56,453 bases of DNA, from the NCBI GenBank assembly GCA_022782605.1, contig JALFMW010000010.1, positions 1 to 56,453 of the forward strand, written 5' to 3'. The DNA is from Clostridium sp. GTDB lineage: Bacteria; Bacillota; Clostridia; Peptostreptococcales; Peptostreptococcaceae. The stretch's first letter is position 1; every line of letters starts with the position of its first letter. Shown here in pieces: positions 4,186 to 6,138 of this stretch. The position numbers and the translations under genes are program-made. The notes under the pieces were generated by a model. That model searched no databases. It was not told the origin of the DNA and saw only the letters and a list, made by a program, of their open reading frames with translations.

Positions 4186-4356
4186 TTATAATACTTCGTG
4201 AAGAGTTGTTTCTAATTCACAGTCGCATCCACAGCAAACTGTTCCAGCTTCTGTAGCTTCCTTAATATCTTCTACTGTTTTAGCTCCATTAGCTACTGCA
4301 ACCTTTATATCTTCAACTGTTGTTCCCATGCAATCACATACTATTTTATCTGACAT
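4186..4356 (-). CDS. BFD-like [2Fe-2S]-binding mini-protein
   Basis: 56 residues, starting MSDKIVCDCMG and ending TTLHEVL. It carries the bacterioferritin-associated ferredoxin pattern: C-x-C near residues 7-9, about 32 residues of two short helices (TVEDIKVAV, TVEDIKEAT), then the C-x2-C run CCGC. Known BFD domains ligate one 2Fe-2S cluster and act in iron or electron transfer. No bacterioferritin is nearby. Two ATGs are possible. The one at 4356 sits 8 bases from AGGAGG, whereas the one at 4362 is only 2 bases away, so 4356 is preferred. A terminator follows, so it is probably monocistronic. Confidence 0.85.
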   Translation of the reverse strand: MSDKIVCDCMGTTVEDIKVAVANGAKTVEDIKEATEAGTVCCGCDCELETTLHEVL

Positions 4357-4505
4357 CTTCATTTCCTCCTAATAATTTTATATTAAATATATACCCCCAT
4401 AATTTATCAATTAAACACATTTTGTTACTTTTTTTCCCATGTATGTTAATTCATATGATACAAAAAATATTTATTAATATTAAATAACTAAAAGGAGTAA
4501 ATCAT

Positions 4506-4931
4506 ATGCAAAATTTAAATAATATCTTAAAATATTTCACTCTTTTTATAATTGGTGGTATTTCATACTACTTTATTGAGATTATTTATAGAGGATATTC
4601 ACATTTTTCAATGATAATTGTTGGAGGTATTTGCTTTGTATTAATAGGTGCTATTAACGAATTTTCAAATAAGGAAGTACCTTTATTGCTTCAAATGATA
4701 CTTGCTGTACTTATTGTTGATACAATAGAATTAATTTCAGGAATTATTATAAATAAAGTACTACTATTAAATGTGTGGGATTACTCTAATTTAAGATTTA
4801 ATCTTTTAGGTCAAATTTCTTTGAGAAGCTCTATTGCTTGGTTCTTCTTATCTCTTTTAGCAATTTATATGGATGATTTATTAAGATATTTACTTTTTAG
4901 TGAGCAAATTCCAAAGTATAAATTTTTTTAG
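4506..4931 (+). CDS. Integral membrane protein, ABC-transporter type IV / PF06541-like
   Basis: 141 residues with four hydrophobic segments (about 9-28, 36-50, 60-82 and 108-130) and the signature-like stretch GGISYYFIEIIYRGYSHFSM. This resembles the family annotated as putative ABC-transporter type IV (PF06541), found as a stand-alone membrane protein in Clostridia. The activity is unknown, and no ATPase is adjacent. ATG at 4506 with AAAGGAG upstream. Its stop abuts the T-tract of a minus-strand terminator, so it converges with the candidate small RNA at 4932-5004. Confidence 0.65.
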   Translation: MQNLNNILKYFTLFIIGGISYYFIEIIYRGYSHFSMIIVGGICFVLIGAINEFSNKEVPLLLQMILAVLIVDTIELISGIIINKVLLLNVWDYSNLRFNLLGQISLRSSIAWFFLSLLAIYMDDLLRYLLFSEQIPKYKFF

Positions 4932-5004
4932 AAAAAAATTAAGCCCTGCTACGAGGATACAGGGCTTAAAATTCATAATGATAGATAAAAAGTGTGAGGG
5001 AATC
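4932..5004 (-). ncRNA. Candidate small RNA with two anti-Shine-Dalgarno segments
   Basis: No gene explains a very good minus-strand terminator here: a 10-bp stem TTAAGCCCTG/CAGGGCTTAA (4939-4948 and 4960-4969) followed by seven Ts (4938-4932). Upstream on the minus strand is a perfect TATAAT (5014-5009) with TTAATA 17 bases before it (5037-5032). Transcription would start near 5004 and give an RNA of about 73 nt. Its 5' end carries UCCCUCAC and the terminator loop carries UAUCCUCG, both able to pair with SD sequences. If transcription starts further upstream, a 12-bp stem (4975-4986 with 5002-5013) would present UCCCUCAC in a loop. The rest of the 4932-5238 gap holds only the LysR promoter. 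Confidence 0.5.
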
Positions 5005-5008
5005 TATC

Positions 5009-5037
5009 ATTATACGGGTATTTAAGTAAATTATTAA
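5009..5037 (-). promoter_or_regulatory. Promoter of the candidate small RNA
   Basis: Minus-strand TTAATA (5032-5037), 17-base spacer, TATAAT (5009-5014). The -10 is perfect and the -35 matches 4 of 6. Confidence 0.45.
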
Positions 5038-5148
5038 GCTAGTCTTTCTATGCTTTAATAATACATTATTAATGTGAATTTAATGTAAATTTTTTATGAA
5101 CCAAAGTGGAATTTTATATATTTTATTTGTACATATATCTTCTTAATA

Positions 5149-5238: not shown

Positions 5239-6138
5239 ATGATAGATTATAGATTAAAAACTTTTCTTACTCTTTGTGAGCTTAAAAATTATACCAAAAC
5301 AGCAAAAAAGTTATTTATAACTCAACCAGCTGTAACTCAACAAATTAAATATCTAGAAAAATATTACGGAGTTACACTATTTAAATATGAAGGTAAAAAT
5401 TTAATCTTAACCCCTGCAGGAAAAGAACTCCAATCTTTTGCTCTTACTTTATCTAAAGATTGTGAAAAAATAGTTCAAAAACTATCTACTAATAAGGAAA
5501 ATATAACTTATAAATTTGGTGCTACTTTGACCATTGGCCAGTATATTATGCCAGATATAATTGAATATATTTTAAAAGAAAATCCTGATACTTCTGTCTC
5601 CATGATAGTTGATAATACCTCTGAATTATTAAAATTATTAAATAAAGGTAAAATCGATTTTGCCATTATTGAAGGAAACTTTAACAAATCCCAATATAGC
5701 TATGAATTATTTTCTATGGAAGATTACATAGGTATTTGTGCTAATAATCATCTTTATAAAGATAATGAATACACTTTAGAAGATTTATCTAAAGAAACTT
5801 TAATACTAAGAGAAAAAGGTTCAGGAACACGAGATGTATTTGAGCAATTACTTTATGAGCAAAATCTCTGTATAGAAAGTTTTAACTCCATCTGTGAAAT
5901 AGGAAGCTTACCTGCAATCTTATCTCTTGTAGCTAATAATTGTGGAATATCATTTATGTACAAAATTGCTGCTGAATCTTATATAAATAATAATTTAGTT
6001 TCACCAATTAATATTAAAGGCTTACCTATGAAAAGAGAATTTAATTTCGTTTGGTTAAAAAATAGCAGATTTGCTTCTTTATACAATGAGTTTTTCAAAA
6101 TTTGTAGAGATTTCAATAATAAAAAAATACCACTATAA
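5239..6138 (+). CDS. LysR-family transcriptional regulator
   Basis: 299 residues, normal for the family. An N-terminal winged helix (1-60) with the classic KLFITQPAVTQQIKYLE recognition region is followed by a periplasmic-binding-like effector domain (about 90-295). Sequence flavour is of the CysL/CbbR type, but no target is identifiable: neither neighbour is divergently arranged with it. The SD is weak and rather distant (AGGATGTGA, about 12 bases before the ATG), so initiation may be poor or regulated. It ends within the shared terminator at 6126-6166, converging with the replication-relaxation-like gene. Confidence 0.88.
   Translation: MIDYRLKTFLTLCELKNYTKTAKKLFITQPAVTQQIKYLEKYYGVTLFKYEGKNLILTPAGKELQSFALTLSKDCEKIVQKLSTNKENITYKFGATLTIGQYIMPDIIEYILKENPDTSVSMIVDNTSELLKLLNKGKIDFAIIEGNFNKSQYSYELFSMEDYIGICANNHLYKDNEYTLEDLSKETLILREKGSGTRDVFEQLLYEQNLCIESFNSICEIGSLPAILSLVANNCGISFMYKIAAESYINNNLVSPINIKGLPMKREFNFVWLKNSRFASLYNEFFKICRDFNNKKIPL

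Follow-up and report, generated by a model that had tools for sequence, protein, structure and literature searches.

The streptococcal csRNAs are controlled by CiaR, occur in several copies, carry anti-Shine-Dalgarno (anti-SD) loops and have a direct-repeat activator box about 10 bp before the -10 element. They differ from the RNA described here in their repeat, TTTAAG, and in their regulator, and were compared with it through Rfam only. In Bacillus and Staphylococcus, RoxS/RsaE and FsrA use C-rich motifs to pair with ribosome-binding sites, which is the mode of action also proposed here. LhrC1-5 of Listeria monocytogenes are multi-copy siblings with repeated CU-rich motifs, and all of them depend on LisRK (PMC4132741). 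The RNAs described below form a sibling family too, with six copies in genus g17 and a single one in Terrisporobacter, and they would resemble LhrC further if they were under the control of one two-component system, as their promoter box suggests. They differ from LhrC in that they occur in other genera and in that the regulator is encoded beside the small RNA (sRNA) in ten genera.

Further sRNAs that invite comparison have been described in C. difficile. SpoY (nc020) is captured by Hfq and blocks spo0A; the ribosome-binding sites to which it binds are G-rich (PMC10267692). It is reported to derive from the 5' UTR of CDIF630_00827, and we liken it to the present RNA by description only. RCd6 (CD630_n00170) lies next to blaR, has the promoter TATATA-17-TTAAAT and a length of 140 nt, and gives a Northern band of ~100 nt (PMC3649979). 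It is 12-fold higher in exponential phase, with a mapped start (PMC7438776), and a further study reports its association with Hfq and its repression in infected mice (PMC11651100). When RCd6 and SQ1498 were overexpressed in C. difficile, the predicted target mRNAs showed no detectable change (PMC3649979). In the literature both are isolated sRNAs of unknown function, and we found no description there of either as a family or together with siblings or a regulator.

The window is the whole stretch of DNA that was analysed, 56,453 nucleotides in length. A locus on its minus strand is a real small regulatory RNA gene and belongs to a previously unrecognised sRNA family of the Peptostreptococcaceae, the C. 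difficile group of gut bacteria. Judged from its sequence, the ~118-nt RNA is the window's single-copy member of a sibling family that is spread through these bacteria. With a probability of about 0.72, we read it as a trans-acting sRNA of a family activated by a response regulator, which would act on ribosome-binding sites.

The minus-strand RNA gene and its relatives

The preliminary description had placed an RNA of ~73 nt in a gap without a minus-strand gene. This gap was confirmed between a PF06541 gene (4506-4931, plus strand) and a LysR gene (5239-6138, plus strand). The RNA itself is longer than first read, since the conserved RNA comprises ~118 nt and its promoter lies further upstream. 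Its 5' end probably lies near 5051, within ~4 nt. Comparison between genera establishes the promoter, a covarying hairpin with the fixed loop UCCCUCACA, the terminator and a genomic link to a two-component system. The features of the locus are as follows.

About 4932-5051, minus strand: small RNA of ~118 nt, delimited by its conserved extent, a covariance match at 4965-5051 (model without Terrisporobacter) and the end of the T-run at 4932.
5073-5111, minus strand: proposed response-regulator box, predicted from sequence conservation, with 11-bp direct repeats TTCCACTTTGG (weak), TTCATAAAAAA, TTTACATTAAA and TTCACA.
5058-5063, minus strand: conserved -10 element TATTAT with no consensus -35, the same in all Terrisporobacter and Intestinibacter sequences and in almost every other member.
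5015-5050, minus strand: 5' segment AUAGAAAGACUAGCUUAAUAAUUUACUUAAAUACCCG, conserved and unpaired, ending in ACCC, the third C-rich motif.
5009-5037, minus strand: promoter of the preliminary description, now read as transcribed (5' segment plus one arm of hairpin 1) in view of its compensatory pairing with the opposite 3' arm.
4974-5014, minus strand: hairpin 1 (arms 5014-5002 and 4986-4974), with compensatory changes.
4987-5001, minus strand: loop 1, carrying the nearly invariant anti-SD motif UCCCUCACA.
4932-4969, minus strand: intrinsic terminator, a hairpin with the loop UAUCCUCGUAG followed by seven Us.

The terminator with seven Us had been correctly recognised. Its hairpin (4969-4939) is strong, with a 5' arm at 4969-4960 and a 3' arm at 4948-4939, and is followed by seven Ts at 4938-4932. 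Folding of a 76-nt RNA gave -18.6 kcal/mol (z -5.1), and none of 200 shuffled sequences folded as well; a 122-nt version reached -28.8 kcal/mol (z -5.1). The C-rich segments on the minus strand are UCCCUCAC at 5001-4994 and UAUCCUCG at 4959-4952. UCCCUCAC had been placed near the 5' end; the conserved RNA has it ~50 nt in, as the loop of a hairpin. Downstream of the sRNA, an ORF at 4186-4362 on the minus strand encodes a 58-aa BFD-like [2Fe-2S] protein (PF04324). In the window genome the LysR gene sits between the sRNA and a Replic_Relax gene; at the other Terrisporobacter and Intestinibacter loci the Replic_Relax gene directly adjoins the sRNA.

All six genomes of Terrisporobacter, the window's genus, carry the sRNA block once; of four Intestinibacter genomes, three have it. 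A covariance search across the Peptostreptococcaceae had been proposed as a check. Across 394 genomes of the order, a model built from the Terrisporobacter and Intestinibacter sequences detected no homologue beyond the family; within it, ten genera yielded full-length ones. Further homologues lie behind the shared kinase gene in four additional genera. In total, covariance models place the sRNA in 14 of the 23 genera of Peptostreptococcaceae. A second model, R2, was built only from other genera, without Terrisporobacter and Intestinibacter. Its sole match in the window genome was 4965-5051 on the minus strand (45.4 bits, E 0.0014). R2 found six copies in each of two g17 genomes, and a single copy in Terrisporobacter.

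The anti-SD segments proposed at the outset fared unequally. Only three divergent copies (L166, L167 and L168) among the 25 aligned depart from the loop UCCCUCACA, and UCCCUCAC hardly varies within the family. In contrast, the UAUCCUCG terminator loop is limited to Terrisporobacter and Intestinibacter, so that conservation in relatives is found for the first C-rich loop and only in part for the second. Most genera carry AUCCUC a few bases beyond UCCCUCACA, within loop 1. Terrisporobacter and Intestinibacter have no AUCCUC in loop 1, and instead their terminator loop bears AUCCUC or ACCCUC. One segment is thus ancient and the other lineage-specific. In the alignment of these two genera, the AUAGAAAGACUAGCUUAAUAAUUUACUUAAAUACCCG segment is invariant up to ACCC, and AGACUAGCUUA together with ACCC is common to most of the family. 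Deep conservation, covariation and changing gene neighbours all support the original proposal of a trans-acting sRNA with an anti-SD segment.

The repeat box and the two-component system

The aligned block of ~170 bp that is conserved between Terrisporobacter and Intestinibacter comprises the 11-bp direct repeats, TATTAT, the unchanged AUAGAAAGACUAGCUUAAUAAUUUACUUAAAUACCC and the terminator. At the start of the block the repeats read TTCATA-TTTACA-TTCATA. The box is kept 9 bp before the -10 element in 24 of 25 aligned family members, and by eye also in the remaining one (L158). Anchored on the last repeat, the sRNA promoters follow the pattern TTCAAATAnnn TTCATAnnAAA nTCAnATTAAA TTCATA, 9 bp, TATTAT. 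The window promoter has the same architecture of 11-bp repeats, 9 bp and TATTAT.

In ten genera (g14, g13, g3, g8, g9, g21, g2, g5, g11 and g18) the sRNA lies just downstream of genes for an OmpR-type response regulator, with the domains Response_reg and Trans_reg_C, and a histidine kinase. In most genera the response regulator gene is itself preceded by two such repeats, 9 bp before TATAAAAT-like elements, which suggests that the two-component operon is autoregulated. Within ~0.98 Mb of non-redundant sequence, sites combining box and -10 element were found 28 times before sRNAs, nine times before the response regulator and three times elsewhere. Among the latter, an sRNA accounts for one, and the other two lie before another two-component system. 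A Markov model predicts 2 such sites per Mb; the loci had been fetched around sRNAs and response regulators, so the counts are enriched by design and indicate specificity rather than a rate. In whole genomes, the box pattern with three mismatches allowed performed no better than a reversed control.

In Terrisporobacter the two-component system is unlinked to the sRNA and lies on contig C100 (response regulator at G000:C100:240-905). Its response regulator ortholog is 79% identical and its kinase 62%, and its promoter retains the repeats. Intestinibacter has lost the kinase, and it retains the response regulator as an orphan together with the sRNA. The gene after this orphan regulator (L268, L270-L272) encodes a small protein with a sequence pattern like that of the system's usual downstream protein. 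The response regulator or its kinase is present in all sRNA-bearing genera that were checked. All six genera without the response regulator also lack the sRNA, and three genera have the response regulator without a confident sRNA (Fisher p 8e-4 for co-occurrence, a statistic that ignores phylogeny).

Some neighbouring genes recur. A copper-type P-ATPase gene usually precedes the two-component system, and beyond the sRNA there is often a pair of ArsP_1-like permease genes with a small protein of 70-95 aa (both at L156-L161 and others). Elsewhere, a box-like site was seen at L069 and L102, in two Intestinibacter genomes, before another two-component operon (response regulator MFNILVIEDNKNM). This operon is divergent from an ABC-type transporter gene, and cross-regulation is possible. 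The pst promoters of Terrisporobacter (L046-L052) have PhoP-like repeats, TTAATA/TTAACA, with an 11-bp period and 9 bp before TATTAT. A Pho regulon sRNA with a Pho box was considered and rejected: the architecture equals that of the pst promoters, and the repeat sequence is a different one (TTCATA/TTTACA, not TTAACA).

The sRNA could still be real and its repeats be bound by another OmpR-family regulator, such as PhoP of the phosphate system, with the operon linkage being incidental. We consider this unlikely, even though the pst promoters of the same genomes share the whole arrangement of 11-bp repeats, 9 bp and TATTAT, and Intestinibacter has no kinase while its box-like site precedes a different two-component system. 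The pst repeats read TTAACA/TTAATA, in contrast to TTCATA/TTTACA at the sRNA. The sRNA box recurs before the linked response regulator gene in most genera, and response regulator and sRNA go together in their presence. Activation by the linked response regulator remains our preferred reading. On this comparative evidence, the OmpR-type regulator of the autoregulated system (contig C100 in the window genome) would bind the 11-bp repeats and, once bound, would recruit RNA polymerase to TATTAT, and in this way it may activate transcription of the sRNA.

Transcript start and hairpin 1

A shorter transcript was proposed in the preliminary description, namely an RsaE/RoxS-type regulator of ~73 nt starting from TATAAT at 5014-5009. 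We judge this version to be very unlikely. The sequence elements exist, with TTAATA at 5037-5032 as a fair -35, a spacing of 17 bp and TATAAT as a perfect -10 match, but they are not conserved as a promoter. The region around the sRNA is AT-rich, and a promoter match alone is not unusual there. Indeed, the TTAATA-17-TATAAT match is not above chance, with 47 promoter-like sites in the region compared to 51 +/- 8 expected. The TATAAT hexamer forms the 5' arm of hairpin 1. It is changed to GATAAT or GGTAAT in Intestinibacter and to TATAGT in one Terrisporobacter, and it is lost in other genera. Each of the changes in Intestinibacter and Terrisporobacter preserves the pairing with the 3' arm (U-G/U-A to G-C, A-U to G-U). 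Therefore, the segment is a transcribed hairpin and not a promoter. Moreover, conservation extends ~90 bp upstream of this hexamer. A ~73-nt RNA could nevertheless exist as a secondary start or a processed form, as RCd6 is annotated with 140 nt and gives a Northern band of ~100 nt.

The proposed RsaE/RoxS-type layout holds as a likeness in working style only, with the UCCC motif being present in the window RNA. The RsaE/RoxS model of Rfam gave no match at the gathering score and no weak match at E 10. The LhrC covariance model did not match either, and neither the window nor any of 16 relatives had a match to an Rfam family at the gathering score. The weak Rfam matches that were seen belong to unrelated families.

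Hairpin 1 is supported by covariation. In the other genera, all 13 pairs show double-sided compensatory changes. Paired cells amount to 93%, compared to 80% in shuffled alignments and at most 66% in slid versions, and the covariation score is 0.551, compared to 0.290 for shuffled and at most 0.327 for slid versions. These pair counts were made without Terrisporobacter and Intestinibacter, because MAFFT misaligned their 3' arm against the rest. Within these two genera there is one double-sided change (UG/UA to GC).

The same substitutions bear on the idea that the RNA encodes, or acts through, a tiny peptide starting in the stem, whose sequence would be MIDSLTLFYLSL in Terrisporobacter and MATLPHIL elsewhere. 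Most members do have a short ORF across the loop that opens with AUG or GUG. However, the substitutions track base pairing, the frame is shifted by one base between the two groups, a one-base deletion in the window alters the peptide, a start codon or an ORF is missing from several members, and no SD sequence lies upstream. Thus the peptide is hardly credible, and the small ORF was rejected on the differing reading frame of the groups. Equally implausible is a local cis element that serves the convergent PF06541 gene as its terminator or antisense: the sRNA terminator does abut the stop codon of that gene (4506-4931), but the neighbours are wholly different between genera while the RNA persists with its own promoter.

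Proposed mode of action and the probable Clostridioides copies

For the trans-acting sRNA, a mechanism can be proposed by analogy with LhrC (PMC4132741) and RoxS (PMC8216469). The exposed C-rich motifs UCCCUCAC, AUCCUC and ACCC would base-pair with target mRNAs at their ribosome-binding sites, and this would block their translation, possibly with the help of Hfq. A search for the exact 9-mer complement TGTGAGGGA revealed no conserved ribosome-binding-site target in eight genomes. The matches were mostly in-frame coding sequence, plus the sRNA copies themselves. The pairing is therefore probably shorter or bipartite.

We take genus g17 to be Clostridioides. Its sRNA copies adjoin dapF, a small zinc-ribbon gene (two copies) and, nearby, the parent two-component system; of the other copies, one follows another two-component system and precedes a D,D-carboxypeptidase gene, and one sits between blaI-blaR1 and a MecA-like penicillin-binding protein (PBP) gene. 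In one g17 genome (G021; loci L162, L163, L228, L229 and L230), with six copies, a tandem sRNA pair flanks a 73-aa zinc-ribbon ORF. The published promoter of RCd6 is exactly that of g17 copy C, and the copy next to blaR1 (copy D) is one change off. The lengths of RCd6 and the family fit. In contrast to copy D, which has the PBP gene on its other side, RCd6 of strain 630 is reported with a PTS gene there. From gene context and promoter, rather than from the strain 630 sequence, RCd6 is probably a member of the sRNA family. SQ1498 sits between a histidine kinase gene and a conserved hypothetical gene, and a degenerate g17 copy lies there, at the parent two-component locus. SQ1498 is possibly this degenerate copy.

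The recurring neighbours (copper-type P-ATPase, ArsP_1 permeases, BlaI-BlaR1 and PBPs) hint weakly at envelope or metal stress. Somewhat short of even odds, we consider that the ancestor of the Peptostreptococcaceae had response regulator, histidine kinase and sRNA as one module, with the sRNA as the main output of the two-component system. A response to cell-envelope or metal stress would then run mainly through anti-SD sRNAs. On this reading, the sRNA gene and its promoter would have moved or multiplied in several genera and would have outlived the kinase in Intestinibacter.

The sRNA family is new and of a kind already known, that of C-rich sRNAs under two-component control. Among the Firmicutes it is another, apparently independent, example of C-rich anti-SD sRNAs driven by two-component systems. 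RCd6, which had been named but unexplained, can now be placed beside probable siblings, and it acquires a fixed seed as well as a likely regulator whose binding box is defined. The six-copy redundancy could explain why shifting the level of RCd6 or SQ1498 alone gave no clear effect in 2013. In this way, one predicted sRNA becomes a family-wide testable regulon that groups orphan sRNAs of C. difficile.
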